Shown here in pieces: positions 12,386 through 63,217 of a stretch of DNA of 64,000 nucleotides. The notes under the pieces are model-generated. The model saw nothing but the letters and a program-made list of their open reading frames with translations, was not told where the DNA came from and did no database searches. The position numbers and the translations under genes are program-made. Source of the stretch: Apostichopus japonicus. Taxonomy: Eukaryota; Echinodermata; Holothuroidea; Aspidochirotida; Stichopodidae. The stretch is taken from the NCBI RefSeq assembly GCF_037975245.1, contig NC_092568.1, positions 7,733,501-7,797,500 on the forward strand, given 5' to 3'. Position 1 is the first letter of the stretch; each line of letters starts with the position of its first letter.

Positions 12386-13249
12386 CTTGGGTAGTAGTTG
12401 TCGGATCTTCAATTCGCGATTAATGAATGTCTTGAATGATTCCCAGTTCTTGGTTTTATCCGATCATGTAAAACCAGTATCGTTGATGTCACATTATTGA
12501 CGATTGTGGTCGGGAAGGCGTGGCTTGCTTTTTTTTACGACTGATTGCAGCATAAAGTTAACTCATCGGTTTTGTAGCTAGCTGATGGCGTTATTTTTTT
12601 ATTTATTTATTTATTTTTTTTTCTATATGAAGTTTCTAAAAAACATCCAGAATCAAAGCGACTGTAAGGTTGAAAGTTCGCAGAACGGCAATACTTTACT
12701 GATATGTTGTTTATATGTAAAAAGTAAAATTATCTTGTAGATATTTACCAGGACGTTGATCCAGGATTTTTGGTTCCTTGCTTTTTGCAAAGCAAGGAAC
12801 CTATGCGTTCAACTTGGCGTGTGTGTGCGTGGGTGTGTGTGTGCGTTAGCAATTACCCTCAACCGCGGACGAAAATGTGAATACACACCCGTCAATCGCG
12901 GACGCCTCGGGAAACGCGGACGGTCCCCGATTGTTATTACAATGGGAACAGTATATTTTGGACCTAATAGTGGCGCTATTTAATTATTTCGTGCCTGTAA
13001 TGCTGGTCCACGATTGAACCGTACAGCGTATGTTGCAGTGTATCCAGTGTGTATGTTATGTCTGTCAATAGTACATTGTGTATCAACAGCGCCCTCATAC
13101 ACTTCCACAGTATGTTGGTCCAAGCAAGCTGCGTGTTTGCGCGCGTTTTTGTTACAAGCAAAGATTGTATGTTACAAGTTACGTACCCGTTCCGTGCACT
13201 GCACTACACAAGTTACGAGTCTATAGACGCTTGCCTCATCAGTTATTCG
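12386..13249. other. Intergenic region with hairpin repeat; possible upstream exon of the SET gene
   Basis: This region separates the divergent lectin and SET genes. It contains an A/T tract (12595-12622), a perfect 13-bp-stem hairpin at 12772-12801 that opens a dispersed repeat, and a less AT-rich segment at 12990-13249. That segment ends at a good donor (CGGTGAGTAA, cut after 13249) and could be a 5' untranslated exon of the SET gene. The exon proposal is weak and needs transcripts. Confidence 0.35.
12772..12801. repeat. Perfect hairpin at the edge of a dispersed repeat
   Basis: GGTTCCTTGCTTT and its exact complement AAAGCAAGGAACC flank a 4-base loop. A related GCAAGGAACC box occurs at about 31311 at the end of the repeat at 29680-31340, followed here and preceded there by similar GT-rich text. 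This suggests the hairpin marks one end of the same dispersed family. Confidence 0.6.
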
Positions 13250-13680
13250 GTGAGTAATGAACAGAATGTTTTTTTTTTCTGAGTGTCTCGGTTTGATATG
13301 ATTCCGATGTGCAGCACTGTCAGCCGAAAATAACAGTGCTACCTAACTCTAATTGTAAGAACTTAGTATTTTAAGTTTCATTGAAGGCTAGGCCTAGTAA
13401 TAGTATTACTATTAGTACTATTACTACTTCCGTGGCCGGCCTCTATCAGTATCACTGTTAGGCATAGTCTAACTCTAGTCTAATTGAGGCTATCATTGAT
13501 TGACTATTCTTGGCCGAGGCTTTAGGCCTCGAATTTCAAATATATCAAGTAGGACTTTCTAAATGCGATTAGAAAAGATAAGACTGAAGAAGCTAGGTGT
13601 AGGCCTAGTATTTTTCAGCAAGTTGAATTCATAGTGTAGTTTGTTTCACTCGTTTCTTTATCAAATAATTACATGGCTAC

Positions 13681-16600
13681 AGTACAGTAGGTCTAAACTA
13701 GCCTAGCACTGAACCCTTCTGTGGGTTCACCTCTCTATGTTCTGTGTTCCTATGGTACATTAATGGATGTGTATCTCCCCTATTAGATAATCAATCTTTT
13801 AATTGGTGGAATGTGTAGAGGAATGCTTAACTATTCAATGCCAAATGGTAATTAAGTTGTATTTATCTGCTCTCTATCACATAATTACAAAGGATACAGT
13901 ACAGTAACTTGTATAAGTCTAAACTTGCACAATTTTCCTTTCTGTTGGTTCACCTCTCTGTGTACTGTGTTGCTATAGTAATGTATTGGAGATATATGTC
14001 CTAGTTTATGGTAATTGTTAAGTCATTTTCACCTGTCTCATTAAATAATTACATGGGCTATAGTACAGTAGGTCTAAACAAGCACAATTTTCCCTCCTGA
14101 TGGTTCACCTCTGTTTGCTGTTTTCCTACGATACTGTATGGAAGATATGTCCCCTATTAGATAGTCAATCTTTACTATGTTGATATTCATAGGAATGACC
14201 AACTATTTTATGTTAAATGTTTAAGTTATATTCAACTGTCTCATTATTAAATAATTGCATGGCATTAATACAGTAGGTTTAAAAGGCTAGCACAGTTTTC
14301 CCAACTGCTGGTTCACTTCTGTGTGTGCCTGTGATGATATTTTACACTAAATGGCAATTCATATTCATCTGTTAAATTATCAAATAATTGCATTTCTACA
14401 GTAGATGTAAACTAGAACTGCTTCCTGTGTGTTCAGTGCCTGTGATGCTGTATTGTAGATATATGTCCCCTATCAGATAGTCAATCTTTTACTGTGTTGA
14501 CGTTTCATAGGAATGTGTAACTTATTTACGCTAAATGGTAAGTAATATTCATCTGTTTCATTAGCAAATAATAACATGGGATACAGTACAGTAGGTCTAA
14601 ACTAGCACAGTTTTCCCTTTTGCTGTTTCACCTCTCTGTGTGTTGTGTTGCTATGGTACATTATTGTAAATATATGTCCCCTATTAGATAGTCAATCTTT
14701 CACTTTGTGGAATGTTTACAGGAATGCTTAACTATTTTATGTTAAATGGTAAGTCAATTAATCTGTTTCATTAGCAAATAAAAACATGGAATAGTACAGT
14801 AGGTCTAAACTAGCACAGTTTTCCCTTTTGCTGCTTCACCTCTCTGTGTGTTGTGTTGCTATGGTACATTATTATAGATATATGTCCCCTATTAGATAGT
14901 CAATCTTTCACTTTGTGGAATGTTTACAGGAATGCTTAACTATTTTATGTTAAATGGTTAGTCAATTAATCTGTTTCAATATCAAATAATTACATGGGAT
15001 ACAGTACAGTAGGTCTAAACTAGCACAGTTTTCCCTTTTGCTGTTTCACCTCTCTGTGTGTTGTGTTGCTATGGTACATTATTGTAGATATATGTCCCCT
15101 ATTAGATAGTCAATCTTTCACTTTGTGGAATGTTTACAGGAATGCTTAACTATTTTATGTTAAATGGTAAGTCAATTAATCTGTTTCATTAGCAAATAAT
15201 TACCTGGGATACAGTACAGTAAGTCTAAACTAGCACAGTTTTCCCTTTTGCTGTTTCATCTCTCTGTGTGTTGTGTTGCTATGGTACATTATTATAGATA
15301 TATGTCCCCTATTAGATAGTCAATCTTTCACTTTGTGGAATGTTTACAGGAATGCTTAACTATTTTATGTTAAATGGTTAGTCAATTAATCTGTTTCAAT
15401 ATCAAATAATTACCTGGGATACAGTACAGTAAGTCTAAACTAGCACAGTTTTCCCTTTTGCTGTTTCACCTCTCTGTGTGTTGTGTTGCTATGGTACATT
15501 ATTATAGATATATGTCCCCTATTAGATAGTCAATCTTTCACTTTGTGGAATGTTTACAGGAATGCTTAACTATTTTATGTTAAATGGTTAGTCAATTAAT
15601 CTGTTTCAATATCAAATAATTACATGGGATACAGTACAGTAGGTCTAAACTAGCACAGTTTTCCCTTTTGCTGTTTCACCTCTCTGTGTGTTGTGTTGCT
15701 ATGGTACATTATTGTAGATATATGTCCCCTATTAGATAGTCAATCTTTCACTTTGTGGAATGTTTACAGGAATGCTTAACTATTTTATGTTAAATGGTAA
15801 GTCAATTAATCTGTTTCATTAGCAAATAATTACCTGGGATACAGTACAGTAAGTCTAAACTAGCACAGTTTTCCCTTTTGCTGTTTCACCTCTCTGTGTG
15901 TTGTGTTGCTATGGTACATTATTATAGATATATGTCCCCTATTAGATAGTCAATCTTTCACTTTGTGGAATGTTTACAGGAATACTTAACTATTTTATGT
16001 TAAATGGTTAGTCAATTAATCTGTTTCAATATCAAATAATTACCTGGGATACAGTGCAGTAGGTCTAAACTAGCACAGTTTTCCCTTTTGCTGTTTCACC
16101 TCTCTGTGTGTTGTGTTGCTATGGTACATTATTGTAGATATATGTCCCCTATTAGATAGTCAATCTTTCACTTTGTGGAATGTTTACAGGAATGCTTAAC
16201 TATTTTATGTTAAATGGTAAGTCAATTAATCTGTTTCATTAGCAAATAATTACCTGGGATACAGTGCAGTAGGTCTAAACTAGCACAGTTTTCCCTTTGC
16301 TGTTTCACCTCTCTGTGTGTTGTGTTGCTATGGTACATTATTATAGATATATGTCCCCTATTAGATAGTCAATCTTTCACTTTGTGGAATGTTTACAGGA
16401 ATGCTTAACTATTTTATGTTAAATGGTTAGTCAATTAATCTGTTTCAATATCAAATAATTACATGGGATACAGTACAGTAGGTCTAAACTAGCACAGTTT
16501 TCCCTTTTGCTGTTTCACCTCTCTGTGTGTTGTGTTGCTATGGTACATTATTGTAGATATATGTCCCCTATTAGATAGTCAATCTTTCACTTTGTGGAAT

Positions 16601-17990
16601 GTTTACAGGAATGCTTAACTATTTTATGTTAAATGGTTAGTCAATTAATCTGTTTCAATATCAAATAATTACCTGGGATACAGTACAGTAAGTCTAAACT
16701 AGCACAGTTTTCCCTTTTGCTGTTTCACCTCTCTGTGTGTTGTGTTGCTATGGTACATTATTGTAGATATATGTCCCCTATTAGATAGTCAATCTTTCAC
16801 TTTGTGGAATGTTTACAGGAATGCTTAACTATTTTATGTTAAATGGTTAGTCAATTAATCTGTTTCATTAGCAAATAATTACCTGGGATACAGTGCAGTA
16901 GGTCTAAACTAGCACAGTTTTCCCTTTTGCTGTTTCACCTCTCTGTGTGTTGTGTTGCTATGGTACATTATTGTAGATATATGTCCCCTATTAGATAGTC
17001 AATCTTTCACTTTGTGGAATGTTTACAGGAATGCTTAACTATTTTATGTTAAATGGTTAGTCAATTAATCTGTTTCAATATCAAATAATTACATGGGATA
17101 CAGTGCAGTAGGTCTAAACTAGCACAGTTTTCCCTTTTGCTGTTTCACCTCTCTGTGTGTTGTGTTGCTATGGTACATTATTGTAGATATATGTCCCCTA
17201 TTAGATAGTCAATCTTTCACTTTGTGGAATGTTTACAGGAATGCTTAACTATTTTATGTTAAATGGTTAGTCAATTAATCTGTTTCAATATCAAATAATT
17301 ACATGGGATACAGTGCAGTAGGTCTAAACTAGCACAGTTTTCCCTTTTGCTGTTTCACCTCTCTGTGTGTTGTGTTGCTATGGTACATTATTGTAGATAT
17401 ATGTCCCCTATTAGATAGTCAATCTTTCACTTTGTGGAATGTTTACAGGAATGCTTAACTATTTTATGTTTAATGGTAAGTCAATTAATCTGTTTCATTA
17501 GCAAATAATTACCTGGGATACAGTACAGTAAGTCTAAACTAGCACAGTTTTCCCTTTTGCTGTTTCACCTCTCTGTGTGTTGTGTTGCTATGGTACATTA
17601 TTATAGATATATGTCCCCTATTAGATAGTCAATCTTTCACTTTGTGGAATGTTTACAGGAATGCTTAACTATTTTATGTTAAATGGTAAGTCAATTAATC
17701 TGTTTCATTAGCAAATAATTACATGGGATACAGTGCAGTAAGTCTAAACTAGCACAGTTTTCCCTTTTGCTGTTTCACCTCTCTGTGTGTTGTGTTGCTA
17801 TGGTACATTATTGTAGATATATGTCCCCTATTAGATAGTCAATCTTGACAGTGTTGATGTTTCATTGGAAATTGGAACACTTAACTATTGTATTTTAAAT
17901 GTTTAAGCTATATTCACCTTTTCATTATGTAATAATTTCATGGCTACACTACAGTACATAGGTCTAAACTAGGAATGTTTTCCCATCTGC
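13681..17990. repeat. 210-bp satellite array, about 20 copies
   Basis: The marker box GTCTAAACTAGCACAGTTTT recurs every 210 bp from about 14595 to 17755. The core copies are nearly identical; degenerate copies lie at the left edge (13681-14580) and one at the right edge (about 17860-17990). Two variant classes (CATTAGCAAATAA versus CAATATCAAATAA) recur mainly as a three-unit pattern, a 630-bp higher-order period. The array lies upstream of the SET-gene coding exons, probably in a 5' intron or the promoter region. No open frame is maintained through it. Confidence 0.97.
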
Positions 17991-18786
17991 TGCATGAACT
18001 TTCTGTGTGATGTGTGCCTTTGGTATGTGTATGTTCAAACTAACACAGTTCACTGATTTTGCTGGTTAATACCACTCTCAACCGCTGGTTCAAGAATACA
18101 TTTCTACTGTACTGACAGTGTTCATATAACAGTGTTCATGTATTCATAGGAATAAAGATGTATTGTCAGTTATATTTTAGACAGCTCTAGGTCATTTCAC
18201 CACCATGTCAGATGAATAAAGTAATCACAAAAAGTATTATAATAAGCGAGATAACTGACATTGTCATAGTAAAGCAAACTACGTAGTTACCTGTATTAAA
18301 ACATTCAATTCAAGAACCTATTCATTCACCTTTAAGCATTATACATGTCACTTTGCAATGAGTAAAAAATACCTTTAATTTTCTGAAATACAGATTTGTA
18401 CCCAGCAGTAGGTCTTTGGTCAGATGGATAGTAACAAGCACCTGTAGTTAGCATATTAAAGTCCTATACAGTGAGAACACTATCACACATTGAGTATTGA
18501 CACTTAATATACAGCCAAAATGGAAAGTGCTGGGGTTGTCATGTAAAATGATTTTACCCTTCAGATTGCTTGTTCCCTTTATAGACAAATGGTAAATTTG
18601 TAATGACTAAAATTCAATGGATGTGTATTTGCATAGAACAATACTGCATGGCAAGCTTAATTTAGCAATGATGTTTCTATTCAGATAATATTAGTATTAA
18701 CATGAATTGGACCTAATAGTAGTACAGTTTGACTAGATTTTGTTTGAGTTTTCCATTTCTTCTTCTTTTTCTCTGCAATGCAAGGA

Positions 18787-18901
18787 ATGAAATGTGCTGG
18801 TGAATGGACATTGTACATCAGTTTAGCCGCCTTACTCATCAGTCTGATAATCATCATAGTCTACTTGATGATAATATACATTGAAGTTGCCATCAAACCT
18901 G
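18787..18901 (+). other. Possible alternative first coding exon with a membrane segment
   Basis: An ATG at 18787 opens MKCAGEWTLYISLAALL followed by a strongly hydrophobic Ile/Leu-rich run. The frame stays open for 38 codons to a strong donor (CTGGTAAGAA, cut after 18901) in phase 1. Spliced to the SET exon at 19826 the frame continues correctly (..IKPGRGVFAK). Spliced to the exon at 19250 it meets a stop two codons later. It could therefore be an alternative, membrane-anchored start of the SET protein, an upstream open frame, or chance. Confidence 0.3.
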
Positions 18902-19262
18902 GTAAGAAAATAGTATCCCATCACTTGTGTACACTTGTGTTTGTATAAGTAGGAAGGAAATTTATTTAGGGATGATGCTGAAACTACCTCCGAAAGTTTG
19001 ATTTCTCTAGTTTTTTTTTTTATTAAGTAACAGTAATATCCAAGTATATTGTTAACTTTCCCCACTTCTATCATCATTTTATCATCATGTTCTGCAGTGA
19101 GTGTTTGAATGAGCTACCATTTTCTACAGGAAAAGAAGAAATATGGATTACCTTTAAACTACTGTACCTCAATCTAATCTAAAATACATTATGACTTCTG
19201 TGAAAAGTAAATTTGAAAATGCTGCAATTAAATGAATTATTTTTTTCAGGTTGACACACAAA

Positions 19263-22200
19263 ATGAGGAGGAAAAGAAGAGAGAAACCAGAAGATGTTGC
19301 CATTTCCATGGTTAAACGAAAAACTGATAGAGATGGATTTTATGTAAAAGAAATACCACAAAAAGGTATCAAATTCAGTTTTATACTTCTTGTGCTGTAA
19401 TAAAGTAAGAATACCTTGACAGAAGTACCCACAAGTTTGTGTAGTGACATATTCACATTTAACATAGGACTATTTAGCAATGGCATAAATAGTGAGTGAA
19501 AACAACAGGAGAGTGACAATGAACCTAAGTGAAGAATGGGGCGAGGAGGGGAAAGGATCATTGGAGAATTAAGGAAAAGATGTTCTTCTTGGATGTTCAA
19601 GTAGTATGGATGTGGTGTGAAGGCATATTATTGCACACCCTTTCGACTGAGGCACAGAATGAGTGGCTATTAAAATTTACAGCTGCGTTTTGAAATTGTG
19701 TGGTTTTGAAACTCTTTCCCAATTTGGGTTCATTTTGTTGAATGTTGGGAAGGTGCAGCTAGTGATCTTGATAGAATGAGCAGTGAACTTTGTAAAAATA
19801 ACTTGGATTTTCTTCTCTGTTCTAGGCAGAGGAGTGTTTGCGAAGGTCAAATTTACCAAAGGAGAGTTTCTACTGCAGTATGCTGGGTCACTTCTGTCAG
19901 TTAATGAAGGAGATAAGCTTGAAGAGGAAGAAGGGTCATCAGGCTTTAGATTTTTCATTTCATGTAAAGGAAAGGAGTTCTGGTGAGTTGAATACCAAAT
20001 GATTCTTTTGTGAGAACATGTACTATTCTACTCTTTAACAAATTGTTAAATTGTCTGCCTGAGTGCAAATGTAAAGGAGTTCGCCAATTCATCTTGAACA
20101 GCGTGCTATATATTTGAAACACTGTTTGCATGCAAAATTGTTTGCTGCATACTTCTAGTACTACAGTCGAGTCAACATGGTCAAATACAGAAATAATAGC
20201 ACTAAACATATGTAATTTGTGGTTTAAACAGTTCAAATATGGGTAAATAATTCACATGCATAAGCCTGAAGACATATTAGCTGTTCCATATTTATACAGT
20301 AGTCAAAGCAATGAAACCCAAACTCCAATCTCTGAAGTAAATTGTAATCCTGAAATTGTTGAGTTTTCATTAACGTTTTACATTTGTGTCTGTAGTAAGT
20401 GACATGTCAACAATCACTCATCTTCTAATCAAACTATTAATCCTTAAAGTGACAGGATTAATCAAGAGTAGACTTGATGATATTTCATAATATGGACCTT
20501 ATTTTCTTAAATAGTATTGATGCAACAGAAGAAAGAGAGACAGGGCCTATATTGGGACGGTTGGTAAACCACGGAGAGAAAAATGAAGTAAACGTGAAGC
20601 CATCTATTCTTGATTTTGAAGGCACACCAGTAATATGCCTTTTTGCCCTCACTGACATAGCAGAAGGTGAGGAGCTGCTATACGATTACGGTGTGTCTAA
20701 TCTACCCTGGAAGCAGCAAGCTAAGGTAAAAATTGAGGTTATACCATAAGGAAGACTTCTGTTACTGGGAATCATGAGAATGAAACAAGTGTTCAACACT
20801 TCACATTGCAACTTTAAATCTAGAATACCTTTGTGAGAAATTCCTTTGCTTTTCTATGAATAAAATGCAACCCAGTATAAGTAGTCTTCTACTTCATGAA
20901 AGTGAATGTTTCAAAACGTTTGCTATTCTTTAATATTCTTGTTGTTGCTTGAAGTAACATATGAAGTTTACTTTCATGTCAGTTTGCTTTGTTTATTGTA
21001 TTCATTAAAATGTTAATTATTATGAAGAAGCTATTCTCAGCTCAACTGTAAGATAGGTAACTTTGTACATAGTTCTCACCAAAGTTATAACTTTGTAGTT
21101 TGCCATAGTATATATGCTATCTGGCTTTGTGTTTAGCACATTCATACAGCAAAGTAGTGGAGCAAATATATGGAACCAATCAACGTTGCAACTCGTCTTT
21201 CACTTTTAATTGAATTTCTAGGATATTCAAAGACATCTCATTTAGTTGCATCACTTTGAGAATAATCTATAATATTTGCTGTGTATGTATGCTGAATGTG
21301 TCAATATAATATAAAATGTGCTCAGGTAATGTAGACAGACAGTAAAGAAACAACCTACTTGAGTTTTGTTTCTTAAGTTATTGACTTTATTCATCAGCAT
21401 TAAGTAGTTCTGACTGATTTATCAACTCAGACAATAATTCAGTCAGGTGAAACTCTGTTGAAACTATGATCATCACCGAACGAACTCACATTACTCAGAC
21501 TTAAGGATGTATTCTAACTTTGCTGAATATTACAGGCACATAATGAAAATGGATCAACATCATCTGTGGCAACGGGGATATCAGCATCTCTCAAAAAGGA
21601 TATTTTGTCATCGCTGGAAAAGAGAGTTTCAGATCAACACTCTGAGTTAATTTCGTCAGTCATAGACACAGAAGACTCACCAGAGAGCAATGCATTAACC
21701 AGTGACCCCACACCAATGACTGAGAGTGAACAAAATGAGAAGGAATCATCATCTCCCACAAAGATATCAGCTGAAGGACTTGAAACATTTTCGTTGGTGA
21801 TGGACACTAAAGAACCCTCATATGGCGATGTCTCAACTAGTGACTCACAACCCATGAATGCTAATGAACAAAACGAAGAGAGATCATCATCTCAGGAAAA
21901 GGACATATCAACTATAGGAACTAAAATAAGTTCATCGGTAATGCACACTGAGGACCCCTCAAACAGCAATGCCTTAAACTCTGACCCACAACCCATGACT
22001 GTTTCGGAACGAAATAAAAAGGGATCATCATCTCCAGACAAGGACATAACAGTTGAAGGACCTGAAATATGTTCATTACTCATGGACCCTGAAGACCCCT
22101 CAGACAGCTCTGCTTTAACATCTGATTCACAACCCATGACTGCTGATGATATGAAGTTTGCACCACAGATTTTGATGAAAGAGACTCCAATGAAGCATAC

Positions 22201-25200
22201 TGAAGTAAGCTCTTTGGTCCTGAACTTGGAAACTGAAAACGTTTTAAAAGATGCATCTCAATTACTCAATGAAAAGAGTCCACTTTCTTTGGAAAAGTAT
22301 ATGTCAGACATAGGATCTGAAATACGTTCCCTGATCATGGACACTGAGGACTCCTTGGAATGCAATGCCTCAACCATTGATTCTCAACTCATGACTCAGG
22401 ACATACCTGCTAAAGGGCCTGAAACATGTTCCTTAGTCATGGACAATGAAGTCTCTGAAAGTGATGCCTCAACCAGTGAGTCAGAATCTGAGTCTTCTCA
22501 TAGTGATGACTATGTGCCTGAATCTGATTATTCTGAGGATGGAGAAAGTTATGTCATACCCTTACCTCGATTCACACAGAGGAGTGGTTGTGTATCTAGC
22601 TCTTCAAGCAGAAAATGTTCATCTCACAATACAAAACAGAACTGTGAAGAAGAAACTGATTGTGTATCCAGCTCATCAGACATTATCAACCAATGCTCTC
22701 AGGAAAAAACCAGTTGTAACTCAGCATCATCAAGCAGATCATGTGGGATTCAGGTGTTGCAAACAAATAATGGTAGAAAAAGGAAATATGATAAGAGTGC
22801 ATATTGCCCATTTTGCCAAACAAGCCAAGCAAAATTGCCTCGACATCTCTCTGAATTTAAGGAACATAAGGATGAGCCAGAAGTTATTCAATGGCTGGCA
22901 ACTAAAGATCCAGAGCTGAAGGCTAAAAGACTTACAAAAATGAGAAATTATGGAAACTTTGTACACAATGCAAAAGTAAGGAAAGAAAACCAAGGAGTTT
23001 TGATTCCAGTTTACCGGCCAAATTTCACGGCAGACCCAGATGATTACTTACCATGCAGTGATTGCTTTGGCTATTATGCCAAAAGTGATCTGTGGAAACA
23101 CCGTTGTCCATTTAGAAAGCATGTAGGCGCACAAAATGCAAAACCAGCAAAGAGGAGGAATTACATTAAAGAAGGGAAAATGATGTTGCCTGAATTTGGC
23201 CTAACCAAGATAACTTCAGAAATCTTTTCGAGTCTTAGATGTGATGAGGAAGGCGTTGCACGTTTCATTAAAGCAGACACGTTAACCAGACAGCTGGCAG
23301 AAAAGCTTGCCTTGAAACTTGGTCATGATAAAGACCAGTATACATATATTAGAACGAAATTAAGAGAAGTTGGCCGCATGGTAGTTGAATACAGACAATT
23401 GACTGGTGAAAGTAATGCATCATTAACCGACTTGATCGATCCAAAGAAGTTTGTAGCTGTTGTAAACGCCACACGCCAGACATCAGGCTTTGATGCTGAT
23501 AGCCACCTTTATGAGACACCAAGTCTAGCACTAAAAATTGGTCACAGCCTGAAGAAGTCTGCAGAAATCTTAAAAGGTGATGCTCTAATGAAAGGTGATT
23601 TTGACCTTGAAAAGCGAAGCAAAGCCTTTATTGAGCTGTATAACATGAAGTGGGAAGAGCTTGTTTCAACGCATGCTTTGAGAACTCTAAATGAGAACAA
23701 GAGAAATGAACCAAAGTACCTCCCAGTCACAAGTGATATTGTCAAACTAACCAAGTACCTCAAAGACAAAGTTGCATGTGGAGTGAATGTACTGAAGAAT
23801 GAGTCAACAAGTAAACCAAATGACGCAAAACATACCTGGAAAGACCTAGCTGAAGTGACCCTCGCCTCCTTGATAGTGTTCAACCGAAAGCGATCAGGTG
23901 AAGTTGCAAAAATGACGACATCAGACCTAACCAAATGCACAAAGGGTGGTAATGGAGTTGCGGTGGAAGGATTATCAAAATTGGAACAGGAGCTATGCAA
24001 AGTACTGTGGCGAGTAGAGATAATCGGAAAGAAAACTAGAACTGTTCCAGTGTTAATGACAAACGAGTTGAAGGAAGCATTGGATCTACTCTACCAGAGA
24101 AGAAGAGAGGCTGGTGTTTTGGAGACAAATCCGTACATTTTTGCAACATTGCACAGTGAAGGTCATATCAGAGGACCTGATGTGATTAGAACACATGCCA
24201 GGAATTGTGGGGCGATCCATCCTGAGTATGTAACATCGACAAGCCTTCGCAAGCACATTGCGACAGTTTGCCAAATAATGAACTTAAAAGACAATGAACT
24301 TGACATCATTGCTCGTTTCATGGGACACGACATTAGGACACACAGAGAATACTACAGATTACCTGATCAGACGTTGCAAGTGGCAAAAGTGTCTAAAGTC
24401 TTGTTCAACATAGAAAATGGCAACCTCCAAAATGTAGTTGGAAAGAGCTTGGATGAAATCCAAATACAGCCTGATGAAGGTGATAATACTTTCTTGTTTT
24501 TAGTTGGAAAAAGCAGCAGACTGTTTTATTATATTAAATTGTGTACTCGAAGTAGTAATGGGAAGAGCGATGATTTGTCCTGTATGTTACAAGAATCCAT
24601 CATTACACCCTTCATTACATTATTCATCAGTACATTAGAGAGGTGTAATTGACCTGAACACATATTTATCTACCTGCATTAATGCTTATCAGGTATCTGT
24701 TAGTTTGTGACTGTAATGTCTAGCCTTGGAACATGAGAACTCGGCGTTCAGTCATTTCAATGATGACCTTTAAACATGATATTGAAACACTTCAGCTTTA
24801 AGCTGCACCTTTGTCTAACGAACAGCCATGGTAGTAAGAACTTCATTAAATTTCTTTTATGAAGTGATCTCACATGCATTGCAAGTAACTGTAAATAATT
24901 TGAACTAAACTTTTTGCCAAACAGTACTAATGATGATGTGCTAATTGGTAACAATTATCCACTTTCCAGAGGTCCCACGTGATGAAGACGTTGAAGATGA
25001 TTACAGTACTATTGCGGTGTCATCCACTGCATCCGATTACACAGACTCCAAGGTCAAAGCAAGTGAAGGTATGCAAATGCTATCAATTGTGAATTTTAAA
25101 GGTTATTACAAGTTGTCTTTTGTAATGTGTGAGAACTTCAATTTGCAACAAGATCATGAAAAAACTTTCACACAATCTTTTATAAATCTTATTATATATA

Positions 25201-25456
25201 CATGTTATTAAATTGATCAGGTGTAAAGAAGACAAAACAAAACACAACGAAGAAGCCATGGACCACAGAAGAAAAGCAAGTTGTAGCAAGAATATTCAAG
25301 AGCTGCTTTTTAAAGAACAATCTTCCTGGAAAAGACAAGATCATGACAGCTATACATGCTGAGCCAACACTACAATCTAGGACGTGGAGGAACATCAAAG
25401 ACTTCATTCGAAACCAAAATAGAAAAAGCGATCCATTGAGTTTTGTGACACTATAG
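19263..25456 (+). CDS. SET methyltransferase / zinc-finger / tyrosine-recombinase-like fusion protein
   Basis: Six exons in consistent phase (19263-19365, 19826-19982, 20515-20725, 21536-24479, 24970-25068, 25221-25456) give a predicted 1249-residue protein. Residues ~30-157 form a KMT5A-like SET domain: GRGVFAK, KEFCIDATEE, LGRLVNH and GEELLYDYG (cofactor and catalytic Tyr motifs). Residues ~190-475 are acidic Ser-rich ~47-residue repeats. Two zinc-finger motifs follow (CPFC..H..H near 581; CSDC..H..C near 664). Residues ~740-1110 resemble a tyrosine recombinase: NRKRSGEV (Arg I), GKKTRTVP (Lys), TSLRKHIAT (Arg II, with Thr where HxxR has His), GHDIRTHREYY (His and Tyr). The last ~78 residues (KPWTTEEK..RTWRNIKDFI) look SANT/Myb-like. 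The zinc-finger/recombinase/SANT part recalls a large animal family of uncharacterised proteins. Histone methylation and DNA binding are inferred. A polyadenylation signal lies at 25517. Confidence 0.85.
20859..20864 (+). promoter_or_regulatory. Possible intronic polyadenylation signal (AATAAA)
   Basis: If the intron after the third SET exon is retained, translation stops at 20747-20749 after six extra residues and AATAAA follows about 110 bp later. This could yield a SET-only short isoform of about 163 residues, lacking the recombinase part. AATAAA is common in AT-rich DNA, so this is suggestive only. Confidence 0.3.
21632..22490 (+). repeat. Coding tandem repeat (~47 residues) in the SET-recombinase gene
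   Basis: Five to six units of roughly 140 bp each contain a core such as SLVMDTEDPSDSNALTSD followed by QPMT and, in several units, EQNE and SSS. Units differ by substitutions and small deletions but keep frame. They form an acidic, probably disordered linker between the SET domain and the zinc-finger/recombinase half. Confidence 0.85.
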
Positions 25457-25516
25457 TACCTTTGATCATGGTCTTTGCATTACTGTTACTATATACTACA
25501 CTTATACTTTCTTTCA

Positions 25517-25522
25517 AATAAA
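25517..25522 (+). promoter_or_regulatory. Polyadenylation signal of the SET-recombinase gene
   Basis: AATAAA lies 61 bp after the stop codon at 25454-25456, a normal distance for a short 3' UTR. Confidence 0.55.
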
Positions 25523-25770
25523 GCCTTCTTGTTCCTGCTCAATCCCAGAGAAAAAGATTGTGAAAGACCTTCCAAAACTTAACATGCAAATAGTCAAGTC
25601 TTTGATGCATTCATTGAGGTCTATATTGATGAGTACCTTTTACGTTGTTTTATGCATTAAAGGTTTATCAGTTGCGTTGGTGACAATGGTGATTTTGTAA
25701 TACACTATGATTAGTTTACCAATTATAGTATTGGTAGTTATGTATAAGTAAAATGATGGGTGGAGTATTT

Positions 25771-27420
25771 TACCAGTAACATTTTAACAGTCAACTTGCC
25801 CTAGATATCCTTTTAAATTTACAGTGACATTGTAATCAATACAAGAACAAATAGTTTGTGAAATAATCCTATGATATGGTTTCATCTGTAGATGGTAGCA
25901 TCATCCCTTCCCTTCAATATGGTGGGTGAACCAAGAAGGGTGTGAAGGAGGGGGGGGATGGTGGAGAAGTAAGAGAGGTGGGTGCTTAACTCTAATTAAA
26001 GTAGATGTTGTTTATATAGTTTTAAAGTTAAAGTGTTAAGATAACATGTTTTACGTTAAAGATAAAGTGTTTAAAGTTTAGCAAGGTGTGTTATCTACAC
26101 ATTTTACCAGTCACCTTTCTAGATATCCTTTTAATTTTACAGTGAAATTGTTATCAACAAAAAAACAAATAGTTTGTGAAATAATCATATGATATGGTTT
26201 CATCTGTAGATGGTAGCATCATCCCTTCAATATGGTGGGTGAACCAAGAAAGGTGTGAAGGGGGGGGGGGGTGGTGGAGAAGTGAGAGAGGTGGGTGCTT
26301 AACTCTAATTAAAGTAAATGTTGTTGTTTATATAGTTTTAAAGTAAAAGTGTTTAGATAACATGTTTTACGTTAAAGATAAAGTGTTTAAAGTTTAGCAA
26401 GTTGTTTTATTTACACATTTTACCAGTCACCTTTCTAGATATCCTTTTAATTTTACAGTGACATTGTTATCAATACAAGAACAAATAGTTTGTGAAATAA
26501 TCCTATGATATGGTTTCATTTGTAGATGGTAGCATCATCCCTTCAATATGGTAAGTGAACCAAGAAGGGTGTGAAGGAGGGGGGGATGGTGGAGAAGTAA
26601 GAGAGGTGGGTACTTAACTCTAATTAAAGTAAATGTTGTTGTTTAGTATAGTTTTAAAGTTAAAGTGTTTAGAAAACATGTTTTACGTTAAAGATAAAGT
26701 GTTTTAAAGTTTAGCAAGCTGTTTTATTTACACATTTTACCAGTCACCTTTCTAGATATCCTTTTAATTTTACAGTCACATTGTTATCAATACAAAAACA
26801 AATAGTTTGTGAAATAATCATACAATATGGTTTCATATGTAAGTGATAGCTTCAACCCTTCAGTATGATGGGTGAACCAAGGAGGGTGTGAGGGGGGAGG
26901 GGGTGGTGGAGAAGTAAGAGAGGTCGGTGCTTAACTGTAATTAAAGATTATATAGTTGTTTATATAGTTTTAAAGTTAAAGTGTTTTAAAGTTAAAGATA
27001 ACATGTTTTAAAGTTGAAGATAAAGTGTTTTAAAGTTTAGCAAGTTGTTTTATTTACACATTTTACCAGTCACCTTTCTAGATATCCTTTTAATTTTACA
27101 GTGAAATTGTTATCAATACAAGAACAAATAGTTTGTGAAATAAGCATACGATATGGTTTCATCTGTAAGTGATAGCATCATCCCTTCAATATGGTGGGTG
27201 AAGCAAGGAGTGTGTGAGGAGGGGGGGGGGTGGTGGAGAAGTAAGAGAGGTGGGTGCTTAACTGTAATTAAAGATTATATAGTTGTTTATATAGTTTTAA
27301 AGTTTTAGTGTTTTAAAGTTAAAGATAACATGTTTCAAAAGTTGAAGATAAAGTGTTTTAAAGTTTAGCAAGTTGTTTTATTTACTTATTTTACCAGTCA
27401 CTTTCTAGAGGGGGGTGTGG
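25771..27420. repeat. ~320-bp tandem repeat, about five copies
   Basis: The box TACCAGTCACCTTTCTAG starts units at about 26105, 26421, 26738 and 27064, with related starts at 25771 and 27392, a spacing of 316-334 bp. Each unit carries GATATCCTTTTAA, a G-rich stretch (GGTGTGAAGG then a poly-G run) and TTAAAGT-rich text. Copies vary by small indels, mainly in the G run and the TTAAAG block. It lies just downstream of the SET-recombinase gene. Confidence 0.93.
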
Positions 27421-28619
27421 AAAAGTGAGAGGGGTGGGTGCGTTACTCTAATTGAAGTTGACAGGATTGCAGATTTGTTCCTTTAAAGTGAAGTTTAATG
27501 TTATAAAGTTCACCAAGTGAGTTCCTTTTTAAGTTTTACCAGTGAAGAGTGTTTGAATGAACTACCAATCAGTGAAAGCATGTGGATGATTTGTAGTTAT
27601 CAAAGTTTAAACTTTTCTGTTTAAAAACTTTAATTTTGTTTCATTAAGTGGCTTTTAGCCCTAGTATGTGGTTACCATACCCTGCTCTTTAACATGACAA
27701 CAAGTGGTAGTTTATCTCATTACTTCAATATTAAATACAAGTAGGACTTGTGCTGATGGATTGCCAACCTGAGCAAGGATTCACTTTTGTGAGATATTAA
27801 AGGGACATTGTACCTGAGCTTGTTCATGTGTTTGCTTGCATAGTTGGCATATCATATAATGTCTCTTACTACTTTATTGCTGTTGGTAGGCCTATACTTG
27901 TTGTGGTCTATAATGAATTATTCACATAGAATAGCAACAGGTCATACGACAATGATGAAGGCATGTAGCGCCACAAGTCACTTTCTGCAACTTGTAGATC
28001 TGCTGTATTGGCCCAAATATAGTGTTTTCATGTATGATTCATTGTAGTTTACTCTTTAAGAAGCCTCTGCATTGTTCACAGTGCATACATGCAAAGAACA
28101 AGTGAGATGTGACGTTACCATGTGTCAAGTCTCTATAGATATGGTAAATACTCTAAAGGAGCTGCATTACATGACAATACATGTGAACTGGAACAACAAT
28201 TTGTACATTGTTTATTGTCTATTTGTACATTGTTTTTTGTCTATGCTGTACATTTCATGATTCTTTGCATCGGTAAAGGTCAACATTGGAGCTCAAACCT
28301 AATTCTGGAGAGATGTTTTATTTCCTACTGAGCTTTAACATTTTGTAGACTTGGACCCCGCCACTGATTGTGTCATGAGAATGTCAGATTAATTTCTGAG
28401 GCTTCACTGGTTAGCTGTTTTATATGTCTTTCTAAACTACACAAAAGTTTACAGCTCAATATAGTTTAGACAAACAAATGGTTATCTGTTACATATATGT
28501 ACAGAAATAAAACCTTTCAGCAATGTAATACTTCCATGTTTGTAGGATGCTTTAGGCAGCCATATGTTACAAATAGCTGTAATATCCAGAGGTTGTGCAA
28601 ACACGTCCCCGCTTAGATT

Positions 28620-29510
28620 TTGGAAAACCCTCTGCTTAAGTGTGCACATCCACAATTGGATGGTATTCATTAAGTTCATAGTTGACATTGGGAACTTCCG
28701 CATTATAAACGCTGTGTCCACAATTGGATAGTATTCATTCAAATCCACAGTTAATATATGGAAACTCCACACTAAAGACACAGCATGTCCGCAGTTGGAT
28801 AGTATTCATTCATATCCACAGTTGATATGGGAAAACATCGTACTATAAGCTACCGTGTCCTCGGTTGGATAGTACGGTATTCAGTGTCAATATTTCAACA
28901 GTTGAGATATGGAAAATCACGTTGATCGCCAGTGATGACTAATTATGATGTTAACGTGGCACTTGTGCTATTTACATGTACAGAAAATATGCCTTTAACA
29001 GTAGGGTGGTGGTTTGAGCTGTCACGTGTTAAAAATATCTTGCATATGGAGGATATGCAAACATGTCCCTGGTTAGAATTGGGAAAACTACTACGGTGTT
29101 TCCAGCATTGGATTGCCTTCCCGTTGTGTCCACAGTTGCAATGTGCTAATTCACACTATACCCTGTCCACGATTGGATAGTCCGGTATTCCCATGATGTC
29201 CACAGTTGAATTGTGGAATATCACATATTGGTATTTGATAATAAATAATGACTATTCCTAATGTTTGTGTTCGGAAATTATAGGGTGGTGGTTTGAGCTG
29301 TCATGTGTTGCAAGTACCTGGCATATACAGATGCTATGCACACATGTCCCCAGTTAGAGTTGGGAAAACTCTACGCTAATGTGTCCACAATTGGATAGAA
29401 TTACCTTCGCATCCACAGTTGGTATGTGGAAAGTACACACATTATTGTGTGTCCACGATTGGATAATATATTTTCATTATGTCCACAGTTGCATGTGGAA
29501 AATCACATAA
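28620..29510. repeat. Degenerate two-scale tandem repeat
   Basis: A ~70-75-bp unit with GTCCACAATTGGATAG followed by TCCACAGTTG recurs with many changes. A longer block of about 300 bp, marked by GGGTGGTGGTTTGAGCTGTC at about 28986 and 29284, contains several of these units. It is an old, decayed satellite-like region. Confidence 0.75.
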
Positions 29511-29679
29511 TGATAATTGATCGTAAATGATGACAAAAATAAACAAATCAGGTATTTACATAATGTTTTATTAACAATCAAGGAAGTACGCTTGTAACCT
29601 GTAAACAATAACTTGATATGAAGACGTCCACACTTGCATAGTATCAACATATGGTCCCCGATTGAGGGCATTTACATGT

Positions 29680-31340
29680 ATGCGTGTGTGTATGTGACGC
29701 TTGGCTTGTGTACACGATATCTCAATAAGGAAATGATGTATCATGATGAAACTTGTTGGGTGGATAGCCCATAGTAAGAGGAAGATCCCTATTGTTTTTG
29801 GTGCCCGCAAAGGTCACCAAAGGTCAGTTAGATGCCAAAAACCAATATATTAAAAACAGCAATAACTCCCATTGACAGGGTCCGACATGGTTGATATTTT
29901 GGGAGTAGTTGTGAATGGGGTAAGGCATCGTTTCCAAACATAACGGTAATGTGATCGAAGGTCAACAAAGGTCAATTAATGATAAAAAACTAGTATTTTT
30001 GCGATAACTTGAGAACAAATTGTCCGTTAGGGTTGGGAGTTGCTTCAATGTAATCCAATTGTCGACCCGCATCTGGGTGACCCTTGACCTCAATTTGACC
30101 TCTGGTGACCTCTGGTGACCTTTTTGTGTTTTGTGGATTTTTACAGTTTCGATGCTATTTTCAGATGTTAAAGGTACCTTCTGATCATAAATGTCAATGG
30201 GTTGACCCCCGTGTGACCTTTGTGTGCGAAGTTATACGAGGTCAAAGTTAATTTTTAGACATTTAATGCAATAACTCCCAGTTCCAAGGTGTGACACGGT
30301 TGATATTTTTGGAGTAGTTGCAAATGGTATAGGGGAATATTTTCAAACTTAACGGTCATGTGATCCAAGGTCACCAAAGGTCAATTAATGATAAAAAACT
30401 AGTATTTTTGCGATAACTTGAGAACGACTTGTCAGTTAGGGTTGGGAGTTGCTTCTATGTAATCCAATTGTCCACCCACATCTGGGTGACCCTTGACCTC
30501 AATTTGACCTCTGGTGACCTTTTCGTGTTTTGGGGATTTTTACAGTTTTGATGCTATTTTCAGATGTTAAAGGTACCTTCTGATCATAAATGTCAATAGG
30601 TTGACCCCTGGATGAGCTTTGTGTGTGAAGTTATAGGAGGTCAAAGTTAATTTTCAGACATTTAATGCAATAACTCCCAGTGCCAAGGTGTGACAAGGTT
30701 GATTTTTTTGGACAAGTTGCGAATGGTATAGGGAAATATTTTCAAACTTAGCGGTCATGTGATCCAAGTTCACCAAAGGTCAGCTAATGTTAAAAAACTA
30801 GTATTTTGGGGGGAGAAAATGGGCAAAGAAAAAATGTTTGAATTTTTACAGTTTTGATGCTCTATTTAGGTCTCACCGATCAAAAATGTCAATTGGTTGA
30901 CCTACGGGTGACCTTTGTGTGTGAAGTTATGTATACAAGTTCAAAGTTAATTTTTAGACATTTAATGCAATTAAATCCCAATGCCAAGGTGTGACACGGT
31001 TGATAATTTGGGACAAGTTGTGAATGGGGTGGTGGAACATTTTCAAACTTAAAGGTCATGTCATCTGAGGTCACCAATGTTATCATATCTGTTGACCCAC
31101 TTGTAGGTGACCTTATATTTCTTACATTTTCGACGCCATATTTAGATCTCAAAAGTGCCTTTTGATCAAAAATCCGATCACATTTTGTGATCACAAAAGT
31201 GTTGGCTATAGTGTTGGTTACTTTATGGGAACATGTAGGACCACAATTACTTGGACTATTTGAGCCCAATCTTGCTTGATAATATTATGTGTATTGTCAT
31301 ATACCCCAAGCAAGGAACCACAGTGCCTTGGGCTCTTGTT
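29680..31340. repeat. GGTCA-rich dispersed repeat with internal tandem units
   Basis: After a GT-rich start and CACGATATCTCAATAAGG, three to four internal units of 300-395 bp follow, marked by AGTTAATTTTTAGACATTTA at about 30248, 30640 and 30942. Units contain repeated GGTCA/TGACC boxes (for example GTGACCCTTGACCT). The segment ends near a CAAGCAAGGAACC box and CCTTGGGCTCTTG. It looks like a non-autonomous mobile element family; no transposase frame is present. Confidence 0.75.
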
Positions 31341-55904: not shown

Positions 55905-56455
55905 TGTAAGAGGCATACTATATGGTATTGTACTGAGTTACAGAGGCACACTATATAGTATTGTACTGAGTTACAGAGGCATACTATGTATTGTACTGAG
56001 TTACAGAGGCACACTATGGTATTGTACTGAGTTACAGAGGCATACTATATAGTATTCTACTGAGATACAGAGGCATACTATATAGTATTGAACTGAGTTA
56101 CAGAGGCATACTATATAGTATTGAACTGAGTTACAGAGGCATACTATATGGTATTGTACTGAGTTACAGAGGCATACTATATGGTATTGTACTGAGTTAC
56201 AGAGGAATACTATATGGTATTGTACTAAGTTACAGAGGCATACTAGGTATTAATGAGTTACAGAGGCATACTACATGGTATTGTACTGAGTTACAGAGGC
56301 ATACTATATGCTATTGTACTAAGTTACAGAGGCATACTATATGGTATTGTACTGAGTTACAGAGGCATACTCTATGGTATTGTACTGAGTTACAGAGGCA
56401 TACTCTATGGTATTGTACTGAGTTACAGAGGCATACTATATGGTATTGTAATGAG
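55905..56455. repeat. ~32-bp minisatellite, about 16-17 copies
   Basis: Units of GAGGCATACTATATGG then TATTGTACTGAGTTACA repeat about sixteen times, with single-base changes and a few short deletions. It begins about 55 bp after the preceding, unrelated minisatellite. The 32-bp period is direct and without unique spacers, so it is not a CRISPR array. Confidence 0.95.
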
Positions 56456-58464
56456 TTACCATGATAGAACAATTTCATCTTTGCTAAGAGAATACTGTTT
56501 ATCACTTCTTCATCCAATTGGTGATTTCAGGACTATACCACACCTTAAATTACCTTAAATTCCGGCCATTCATTCTTGTGAGAAAAGCGATTAATAATAG
56601 TTGTCAACATCCTTTGTTGTATTGTGTGATTACTTTGGTGTCATTTGATACGGTTAATAAAAGTTTGCCGGTTTTAAAGTACATTTCATACAATATACAC
56701 ATTGATATGGTATTTTATGCATATGACGTTCTCAGTTGTTATTTTATTTTTCCTGCGTTCTACTAATCACTAATTCACCTCCATTCTCCCTAATACGTAA
56801 TATACTTCATTGAAGAACTGCGTCAACCGTTGGATAATTGACGCAATATGGTTAGATGAAATAGTGAACAAACTCTTCATGGAAAGTAAGCCCCCATGTC
56901 CTGATCAAGTTTCAACAACAACATGCTACAGACCCCAGATACGTTACTCAGGGAAGTGATCAAATATCAAAGTGAAAACTCAAGACTAGTGATCGGTGTG
57001 TTTTCTAGTCTTCACAACGCACTGTGCACTTTGAGCATTCATCCACTTTCTGTGATCCGCAAAATTAGTTTTGTGCAACTTGGAAAAAGATCTCAGATGA
57101 AACTATGGATCTATTTTCCAGGATAAGTGAATCATACACTTCGGACAATAGCTGGATTACTTAGATTATAACGTATCCCAAGAAAAAAAACAGACCAATT
57201 CTTCGTAGGAGAAATTGACGTCACAGTGTATCTGGATGTCGTAAATATCTAACTCGGATCTAATAGTGCTTGAGTGGACAGCAGATTCCTCCCACCCCAG
57301 AAATCAGTGTAAAGTGCAATGCACCTCAGCGTTCTGCTGCAAACTAAGGGTCTGATCTTGTGTGACACCAGTGTACCCTAGCCACAACCACCACCCCACC
57401 ACCACCACACATTATGTGATCTTGTGTCTCCACAAGACAACCAAGGTTCACTGTTACAATTTTACTAGGACTACATTTGCGGGTGTAGAGGGCAATTAAT
57501 GTACTACTCCTTGCAAATTTATGCTGTTATTGTTTAAGAGTTAAGATGTACTCTTCCCTTCAGAACATAAGAATCCAATAATCAGTTTGGCATGGTCAGA
57601 GATTATCACTGTTCCAATTTTCGTCTGAAAAAAATGAGTTTTTTTTTCTAGTAAATTTGTGATTTTAAGACCCACTTCCCATGTCACTGTTTTATATGCT
57701 GTAAAGAAATTTGGGAAACCTTAAAATTTGATATTAATCAAAGCAGAATGATGGAAAACTTTCAAGTCGTATTAAGCACATGGGTAAACAGTATCATATT
57801 CTATGGTCCTGTCTGACAAATCTCCAATGATTTCTCTGTAGCTCCGCAAATAAGAACACTTGATGGATCTCACAAGTACATGTTCTATGCCAAAGTGCCA
57901 TAGTTAACGACATTCTTTTAATCACACATTTAGGCGGTCTGTATGAAGGTATTTATAGATGGCATGCCAAGAAGTGGGTTAAACTTACGTCAAGTATCTC
58001 CTGCTGAAGAGAGATCAAAGGCTTCCGTATCGAAATGGTTGACATTTCTTTACTGATACACCTCACATTCAAGAACATTTGCTCTAAAAGTGTTTTGACT
58101 TGTCAACTTTTTTTTCTGGTCTCTTCATCCTTCAGTGCATCTTGAAATTATCTCATTTCATACCTCGTAAAAGGGAACAGACCTCACTCGCTGGTAGTTT
58201 GTAATTACATGTGGTTTTTCTCTTTTGTTGTCATGGTGACAGTGTGTTATTATTAGCTAAACTCAACTCGGACGGTGCTGGGATATCCATCAAAAGTCTA
58301 AGACAGTTTGATAAAAGTTTCATTTAATCCAAGATATCAAGTGATATCATTCGAATCTATTTGTAGACTCTGTGGTTATAGTAACTTATTAAAATCTTTC
58401 AAAAATTCCTCTAGTAAACATATGTAGTTAAATTCCCTCGATCAGGTATTCTGTCTAATTCTGC

Positions 58465-61247: not shown

Positions 61248-63217
61248 CTAAATTGTTTTATTCCTAGTCACAGGTGTTGAAAGAGATTTCTGCATTTGAG
61301 AGCTAGTTGAAACAGTTATTTGTGGCTCCGAGACTTGATTTGGTAAAAGTGGTACCCGCTTAGTTTCCAAATCTTCCTGTTTTATCTGACTTTGACTCAT
61401 TTGGTCCCTCTGCCTGCCAAAGTCGCCGCGTTTCAGCTCCATGTCGGAAGGTGGGCGAACTTTATTATCGTCGCAGTAACAAAATACTCTAATACTGTCA
61501 CGAATGTTTTTATACTGTTTACATGCGGCGGTGCGAAACGTCCTGTTGAGAATTGAGTATAGCCATGGGTTGATGGCAGCATTCATCAATGTTAATGCGA
61601 GAGATAGCTGACACAGACTGCATTGCAAATTGTCAGGTTTGAAGAGGTCAATCACAGTAAGGATGTTCAGTGGTAACCAACAGGTCGCAAAAACACCTGT
61701 AAGAACGACACCAAAAAGAAAGGCAGGCAATTATTTTAATATAGTTAAAAATTGATTAAATATATATTTAGAATGCTGCTGCAGTGGTTGCTCTGATAAG
61801 ATATCAAATATGTCTTTTTTTTTCTATCCTAATATAGGTTTTATGGTGTATATACCTTTTAGGCGATATTTTTCTACTATTTGCTTTGAATGTTTCCTGT
61901 ATTTGAAATGTTTCCTGTTTAGTAATTGTTTCAATTCCTGTAAAGCGCTTCGAGCAGCGTTGCTGATCGAGTTCTCATCGTTTGGAAAGATCTCAAAACC
62001 TACAGAAGGAGTTTACTCGTCACTTTGTGTTAGAGTATTTATGACTTTTTCATCCTATTCTGGTGATCTTGTAAATAAGTCGGTAATTTAAATGACGCCC
62101 TACAAAATGTTGAGTTTCCTTGCCTCTTGAACCCAGTCACCATGACGACAGCTGTAATGAATCACCTGAACTCTTGTTACATCTAACTACAGTACATATC
62201 GTAATAATAGGCGAACCATCAAACCCTCTCCCTCCCTCTTAGCCCCTCCCCCATCCCCCCCTTCATCAGAGAAGCGCTAAATTTAAAGGGCAAAAACTTG
62301 ACAAACTCCTAGTGCAACCTGATATTGTCTCATCATAAAATACTCTTTTTTTTTTTTTTTTAATGGGAAACCCATTTTATCAATCAGATGGGGCAGTTAA
62401 AGGAAAAATGAAAGTAATTCTAGCGATTGATGGATCGTAGAGACTGTTTTATCGTGAGACTGGGTTTTGACTTACCGGCGAGTAGCGCTAGAATCTTGAC
62501 AGCTCTGTAATCTTTATGCTTGGGGGCAACATATCTACAGTTGTCTTCGTTGCATTCTATGACTTTCCGCTGCGCTTGAGTGAAGGCTGTCCGTCCGATG
62601 GATATGTACATGCAGCATAGGATGACGAACGGCAGACATATACCGATGCCGATGAAAGCCAGGGTGGCGGCCACTCCCAGCATGGGAAGACACATACGGA
62701 ACTGTCTGTGGAAGCTATAGCCTGGTAGTAACAGTGCGCTGCTCCAACACAACGCGCAGATCCAAAGTGAACAGACGGCGACGATCGCTCGGTGTTTCGT
62801 GACCCGCTGGTGGTAATGGAGCGGTTGATTCACCGCAAAGTATCGCTCTATGCTGAGTAGAGCCAACGTCCATACGGAGGCCTCGGCTAACACGGTGTAC
62901 GTGAAGCCTATTAGAGTACACAACCAGTGCTGACGCATGCCCCCGTTGGATGGCTGTATGCTAATCACCATCGGTACGAGAAGCGCGGCCGATAGGAAGT
63001 CGCTACTCGCCAGGTTCAACAACAGGCACCAGGTGATGGTATGAAGTTTGCTGGTCCGTATAATCACTGCTATCACCATGAGGTTTCCTAAGAAAGCAGC
63101 CATGGCAGTTAATGCTAAAACAGTGCACATGATGACATAGGTGTAGCTGGTAGAGATCACCTCAGGTTCCTCGGAAGTCACTGGGCTTACAGTAGCCATT
63201 CCAAAACAGGACATCAA
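61248..63217 (-). CDS. Rhodopsin-family (class A) G-protein-coupled receptor, orphan
   Basis: Two exons (63217-62476 and 61696-61248) joined in phase 1 encode about 396 residues with seven membrane helices. Class A hallmarks are present: GNLMV in TM1, NLASSDF in TM2, the TM3 cysteine in HWLCTL, SIERYFAV (ERY) after TM3, the TM4 tryptophan in SLWICAL, an ECL2 cysteine (RMC), LPF in TM5, CWLPLNI in TM6 and NPWLYSILNRTFR at TM7/helix 8. The tail has a CYC palmitoylation-like cluster. The intron splits TM6 at ALLAG/VFATCWLP. I cannot assign a ligand or subfamily; an amine or orphan-type receptor is possible. The ATG at 63217 is the first; MATV at 63199 is an alternative. The gene lies antisense downstream of the last SEC23 exon seen. 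Confidence 0.93.

Follow-up and report, generated by a model that had tools for sequence, protein, structure and literature searches.

A 64,000-nt stretch of Apostichopus japonicus DNA (NC_092568.1; hereafter the window, whose positions serve as coordinates) very probably carries a recently mobile tyrosine recombinase (YR) DNA transposon that targets microsatellites, is CryptonV-like in its action and contains a captured KMT5A SET domain. Its gene, at 19263-25456 (+), consists of six predicted exons with GT donors and AG acceptors that join in a single frame of 1249 amino acids (aa). The protein reads, in order, as a KMT5A-like SET domain, acidic repeats, two zinc-binding motifs, the YR and a conserved tail. 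A first-pass annotation had taken this gene for a domesticated mobile-element protein parallel to SETMAR. Near-identical dispersed copies, sharp ends in (TG)n and the existence of many families speak against that interpretation, and comparison of the copies indicates that the window locus is the mobile element itself.

Copies, ends and TG-repeat targets

We searched one genome of 671 Mb, whose chromosomes are designated C4, C6, C8 and so on; families A, B and C denote groups of elements. The YR and SET searches scored the best candidates only, and all counts are lower bounds. At least 80 YR matches were found, some of them pieces of one broken copy. The window and three other loci, on C8, C19 and C14, share 99–100% aa identity in the YR and make up family A. 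Over the longest aligned pieces, introns included, the window copy is 99.5, 98.2 and 96.8% identical to the C8, C19 and C14 copies (9.2, 11.5 and 7.3 kb, respectively). Retrotransposition was considered and rejected, since these near-identical copies keep their introns and a reverse-transcriptase-sized frame was not found. Within 12844-29682, the only frames of at least 150 aa are exon 4 of the gene and two frames that overlap it. A multi-copy element that has a YR and lacks a reverse transcriptase frame falls within the Crypton class. An Rfam search of the window gave no match at the gathering score. The element and its immediate surroundings comprise the following features.

12767-12843 (+): left piece of a host dispersed repeat, with the hairpin TTTTTGGTTCC...GGAACC, the arm CAACTTGGCG and (GT)n; from empty-site copies
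12844-29682 (+): whole YR transposon, family A window copy, 16839 bp; ends set by comparing copies
12851-12884 (+): left imperfect terminal inverted repeat; score 30, reached by 0/5000 mononucleotide shuffles
14451-17846 (+): 210-bp tandem array in the element, 16.2 copies; repeat detection
25779-27409 (+): 316-bp tandem array in the element; repeat detection
29641-29673 (+): right imperfect terminal inverted repeat, from the inverted-repeat comparison; the element ends ..ATGTATG at 29682, followed by (TG)n
29683-31319 (+): right piece of the host dispersed repeat, with (TG)n, ACGCTTGGCTTG, a 399-bp satellite and the end AGCAAGGAACC; from empty-site copies

Ends were examined in 11 fetched copies (four of family A, four of B and three of C), the families being chosen as the best-scoring YR groups. 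All 11 right ends read ..ACATGTATG and then run into (TG)n. The fetched DNA included the left ends of six copies (window, C8, C19, C4, C15 and C7), and all six follow (GT)n; none could be located there for C14 or for the four B copies. Insertion into a microsatellite is thus seen at every right end and at every left end present. At nine of the 11 right ends, and at the six left ends, the tract belongs to a variant of one dispersed repeat, always in the same orientation. When the flanks of the window copy are joined without the element, they match 40 scored loci among 1608 candidates, 36 of these over the full 210 nt, at 92–98% identity.

The target repeat is itself abundant (the 1608 candidates are those of a first look) and consists of a hairpin left end, an internal (TG)n, the 399-bp satellite and the right end AGCAAGGAACC. 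In one variant, the arms CAACTTGGCG and CGCCAAGCTTG beside (TG)n are nearly inverted repeats.

The terminal inverted repeats of the element are imperfect; their score was reached by 0/5000 mononucleotide shuffles in family A and by 1/5000 in family C. A pair of inverted arms flanking a short core is how the pertinent passage of PMC3212892 describes a YR site. A 243-bp right end occurs at six places at 99–100% identity, two of which, on C17, have no YR match. Three loci carry the left end at 100% and C12 carries it at 85%; the left-end search did not detect it for the C14 copy or for either right end on C17. On C12 both ends are retained, ~3.8 kb apart, with nothing but pieces of the YR between them, and we therefore read this copy as an internally deleted derivative. 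C17 (37.2 Mb) also holds 18 of the 80 YR matches, many broken or short, a pile-up that is perhaps due to low recombination or to C17 being a sex chromosome.

The class of the recombinase and the element's ends suggest how such copies would arise. The recombinase would bind both terminal arms and join the ends across the TG core, yielding a circle that is either excised or copied out. This circle would then recombine with a chromosomal (TG)n, creating no duplication beyond the repeat itself. If the element core and the target core recombine as the same sequence, this step would account for the fixed orientation of copies in TG repeats.

The predicted fusion protein

The gene inside the element is laid out as follows.

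19263-19365 (+): exon 1, start Met and N-terminal side of SET; splice sites and frame
19826-19982 (+): exon 2, SET with the GRG motif, ending in TG inside a Cys codon; frame, PDB relatives and match to a KMT5A intron
20515-20725 (+): exon 3, SET with the NH and YDYG motifs; frame, Pfam and PDB relatives
21536-24479 (+): exon 4, acidic repeat linker, zinc motifs and tyrosine recombinase; frame and alignment of 20 sequences
21593-22396 (+): acidic linker of 141-bp (47-aa) direct repeats; repeat detection
22805-22867 (+): zinc motif 1 (C-C-H-H), invariant in 20/20 sequences
23054-23107 (+): zinc motif 2 (C-C-H-C), invariant in 20/20 sequences
23891-24355 (+): YR catalytic residues R (23891), K (24029), R (24248), H (24326) and Y (24353); alignment and profile comparison
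24970-25068 (+): exon 5, acidic; splice sites and frame
25221-25456 (+): exon 6, C-terminal PWT...IKDFIRN domain and stop codon; frame and genome matches to the tail

Much of the first-pass description of this protein stands. All parts do lie in a single frame once the six phase-consistent exons are joined; the seam is as exact as claimed, with phase 0 both at the end of exon 3 (20725) and at the opening of exon 4 (21536); and the repeated acidic linker it mentioned is the array of 141-bp direct repeats. Its central proposal, that a SET domain and a DNA strand-exchange domain share one polypeptide, is borne out by a relative on C6 (L051). There, half of SET (the C-terminal one), a repetitive acidic linker, the two zinc motifs and the YR all lie in an unbroken frame of 1263 codons, evidence for the fusion that is independent of predicted splicing. 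Pfam recognizes the SET portion of this frame at 3.2e-4, slightly below the gathering score. A Pfam search with the frame over exon 5 returned nothing useful. Upstream of the SET gene, and still inside the element, an exon-like stretch at 18796-18901 would encode a hydrophobic segment (its 35-aa reading gave no useful Pfam match), and an AG acceptor lies just before 19250; an extra 5′ exon is possible.

To characterize the recombinase we used a 563-aa piece encoded by 22790-24478, which supplies the residue numbers given here, and an alignment of 20 sequences, all from this genome. Besides the window and a single B-family locus, the alignment contains 18 of the remaining YR matches, chosen for diversity and the lack of internal stops. 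Invariance in this set is somewhat favoured because only stop-free matches were picked. Tyrosine recombinases carry the residues R, K, (H/x)xxR, H/W and Y in this order, with a spacing of nine from H to Y. R368, K414, R487, H513 and Y522 are unchanged in 20/20 sequences, H and Y lie nine residues apart, and another residue stands in for the histidine of HxxR (in the window, T484). Both zinc motifs, C6-C9-H19-H26 and C89-C92-H104-C106, are likewise unchanged in 20/20, in keeping with the two zinc fingers first annotated. Pfam Phage_integrase (PF00589) matches four of the 20 aligned YRs, at best with 6.3e-5; the window protein by itself has no Pfam recombinase match. Alignment of the YR profile to 10 phage integrases with hhalign (E 0.0019) placed the five residues on lambda Int R212, K235, R311, H333 and Y342, which we take to be the catalytic set of that enzyme. 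In a rerun, no column shuffle out of 100 scored as high as the observed 32 (the best gave 19.8), and reversing the profile lowered the score to 13. The tyrosine-recombinase-like part of the earlier description is supported by five invariant residues in register with lambda Int.

Other affiliations of the YR were sought. A PDB search with its profile gave no recombinase match and only weak zinc matches. At E up to 1, the list of Pfam families for the 20 YRs has 12 entries, none of them DUF3504, and CryptonA membership by DUF3504 similarity was rejected on that ground. A viral or phage origin was also rejected: tblastn against viral_contigs at E up to 1e-3, run with one sequence as query and so able to reveal close relatives alone, returned no match, phages gave none at E up to 1, and PHROGs gave nothing below 0.24.

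The tail had been called SANT/Myb-like, an assignment that our analysis does not confirm: Pfam offers no match to it at E up to 10. It has 78 matches in the genome. Relatives of the tail lie within 10 kb on the 3′ side and on the same strand for 42 of the 80 YR matches; one lies on the 5′ side and none on the opposite strand. About 12 frames of 79 aa (G000:C4:182760-182930 and similar) have almost equal tail-domain scores and no nearby YR match, and perhaps derive from another mobile family with the same C-terminal domain.

The window SET domain matches Pfam PF00856 at 5.6e-17. Its best solved relatives are KMT5A/SETD8 chains (7e-22 to 2e-20), followed by one other SET protein (2.8e-18) and MLL/KMT2A (1.6e-11), which agrees with the KMT5A-like label it was first given. 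Family A retains the GRG, NH and YDYG motifs. An apparent KMT5A gene of the genome's own lies on C15, with two exons 64–67% identical to the PDB KMT5A fragment used. Its intron, with donor and acceptor read by eye, splits the Cys codon before VDAT between TG and C. Families A and C have an intron at the same position and phase, which, again by eye, separates TG from T in the Cys codon preceding VDAT or IDAT. On the simplest reading, the KMT5A SET was captured as genomic DNA together with its intron, and the capture was probably long ago because the element's SET is far less KMT5A-like than the genome's own KMT5A gene.

SET travels with the YR across the genome. For 55 of the 80 YR matches the 40 kb upstream contain a SET match on the same strand, with none on the opposite strand and none on the 3′ side. 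Six of 68 matches from a KMT5A-query search were picked and paired with YR; four of these are additions, bringing the YR matches with a same-strand 5′ SET to 59/80, while the opposite-strand control covers the set of 55. Conversely, 68 of 150 SET matches are unpaired with a YR. At G000:C13:9222253-9309425, three sets of SET exons are spaced 40,027 bp apart, which may reflect a large unit triplicated in tandem.

The coding parts of family A have changed less than their surroundings in several comparisons, which left aside the tandem arrays and whatever did not align (for C14, 799 bases in the 5′ part; for C8, 173 and 102 bases); the p values come from nine tests and are uncorrected. Between the window and C14, SET has 2/471 and YR 16/1690 changes, versus 192/6831 in non-coding sequence (p 5e-4 and 1.5e-6). 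YR likewise shows 2/1690 changes against C19, versus 77/7701 in non-coding sequence (p 4.5e-5), and 0/1690 against C8 (p 6e-4). For the linker, a difference from non-coding sequence appears in the C14 comparison (p 4e-4) and in neither of the other two. Recent gene conversion could produce the same pattern.

Elsewhere in the window, frames at 61248-61730 and 62420-63256 (-) resemble, by eye, a rhodopsin-type G-protein-coupled receptor, and a frame at 56000-56464 encodes a repeated short peptide, RGILYSIELSY, that appears by eye to be a minisatellite.

Contrary evidence and alternative explanations

Several observations weigh against a microsatellite-targeting YR transposon with a captured SET domain. 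At the ends, the dispersed repeat is missing from the right flanks of C14 and a single B copy. The flank matches are empty paralogous targets and not empty alleles; the circle is a predicted intermediate, and neither it nor an empty allele at the same locus was seen, no search having been aimed at them. At the protein level, the six-exon splicing of the window gene is a prediction, and the recombinase fold is assigned by sequence comparison, with an hhalign probability against phage integrases of 14%, or 9% in the rerun (E 0.0034). As to selection, the SET exons differ significantly from non-coding sequence only for C14 (C8, 1/471, p 0.73; C19, 1/471, p 0.13). Moreover, no SET was found for 21 of the 80 YR matches, including 12 with 40–41% aa identity to the window. 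The two of these 12 that entered the alignment are nearly identical, five of the 12 score almost the same, and together they look like one multi-copy lineage; SET thus seems dispensable for mobility in some lineages and not needed for spread in every one. The NH motif is kept in families nearer to A and is ND in distant families, where SET may be inactive because of this replacement. Finally, SET and YR distance matrices for 12 families correlate weakly (r 0.29, reached by 195/10000 permutations; in two of the 12, B and the C13 family, SET and YR come from different copies), and SET domains may have been swapped between elements. A single capture followed by joint descent of SET and YR is favoured but not proved.

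Two of these observations also bear on what the SET domain does. It may be a captured, catalytically dead tether or scaffold that places the recombinase on chromatin without methylation. The replacement of NH by ND in distant families fits such a role, as do the 12 SET-less matches that resemble one multi-copy lineage; the retention of GRG, NH and YDYG in family A, and SET exons less changed than non-coding sequence against C14, point the other way. We regard a dead tether as plausible, though somewhat doubtful. On our preferred reading, held less firmly than the recombination model, the SET domain would instead methylate a histone in the nucleosomes of the element or of its target site; descent from KMT5A, which modifies H4K20, makes that residue the likeliest substrate. 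The zinc motifs and tail might bind DNA. Such methylation might aid expression or recombination in chromatin, or couple recombination to replication or repair. Chromatin marking at the DNA target by the fusion protein, as the first-pass annotation suggested, is in this sense possible. The broader proposal, of a large animal transposon lineage with a single protein that both integrates into (TG)n and methylates H4K20 (or a different histone lysine) there, coupling integration, expression and chromatin state, we put forward tentatively and consider rather unlikely.

SET and YR could also be two genes of one element with separate transcripts, given that only a predicted intron of 810 nt links them in the window and that SET lies ~9–12 kb upstream of YR in the B family. 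This arrangement is improbable, as L051 holds both in one frame that is read directly. At seven further places, known from match lists alone, SET and YR matches have equal open-frame lengths of 951 to 1429 aa.

A domesticated host gene, SETMAR-like in that an ancient YR transposon was immobilised and became fused with a KMT5A gene, would explain the fusion architecture and the constraint on coding parts. It would not explain near-identical dispersed copies with sharp ends, empty copies of the target, the internally deleted derivative on C12 or catalytic residues retained in 20/20 aligned sequences. A domesticated single gene was rejected on copy number, sharp ends and empty targets, and we consider domestication very improbable. 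Segmental duplication of an ordinary gene family, suggested by the introns and long non-coding parts kept in copies and by the 40-kb tandem SET triplet on C13, is scarcely credible for copies on different chromosomes that have common ends in TG tracts (for the most part those of paralogous repeats) and differ in their outer flanks.

Comparison with known systems

The microsatellite-targeting YR transposon proposed here has its closest counterpart in CryptonV, YR DNA transposons (of cnidarians, by the cited title) of which some families are microsatellite-specific (Kapitonov & Jurka 2012, as cited in PMC8869645). By that citing description CryptonV is, like the present element, a lineage of animal YR DNA transposons, with microsatellite insertion in some of its families; here the microsatellite is (TG)n. 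If CryptonV proteins also bear SET, zinc motifs or a C-terminal domain, the element would be a known group in another host. CryptonA and CryptonI also have a YR as their sole mobility enzyme, just as a reverse transcriptase frame was not found in the window element. According to the part of PMC3212892 that concerns animal Cryptons, a C-terminal domain and terminal repeats are not reported for them, and DUF3504 similarity was seen in three CryptonA-type YRs tested. The window element, in contrast, has a C-terminal domain and imperfect inverted ends, without a DUF3504 match in any of the 20 YRs.

Two further systems share single traits with the element. Endogenous nimaviruses encode YRs that target (TAACC)n, typically with a C2H2 zinc-binding domain (PMC10871703, relevant passage). 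The likeness is a zinc-bearing YR inserting into simple repeats; the nimaviruses described there have very large genomes of many genes, whereas here an element of ~17 kb contains one gene that we could find and no viral gene was seen in it. In Phytophthora, the HarbingerS and MuDR families are DNA transposons with SET histone methyltransferase genes (PMC12730594, relevant passage). As that passage describes them, these are oomycete DDE elements, distinct from an animal YR element with a KMT5A-type SET in one polypeptide. Among the titles and abstract openings listed for the open literature, a range outside which lie Repbase Reports and most subscription journals, we met no report of a KMT5A-type SET fused to a YR. 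Thus YR transposons that enter microsatellites and DNA transposons with SET appear to be known separately, and their combination in an animal YR element was not met in that literature.

SETMAR is one domesticated primate gene that combines SET with a mariner (DDE) transposase. It resembles the present case in joining SET to a DNA-transposon enzyme. It differs in that SETMAR joined the two after domestication, whereas here the fusion, of a YR and a KMT5A-type SET, appears to be carried by a living mobile element that is neither single-copy nor immobile, in many lineages of one genome and with some sign of selection on SET. The element is also a lead to an animal recombinase with TG repeats as its target. 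Should the SET domain be active, the element would carry the means to write a histone mark of its own, and would be a concrete system in which to ask whether chromatin marking helps or limits transposition; the NH, ND and apparently SET-less families of a single genome offer a natural comparison for that question.

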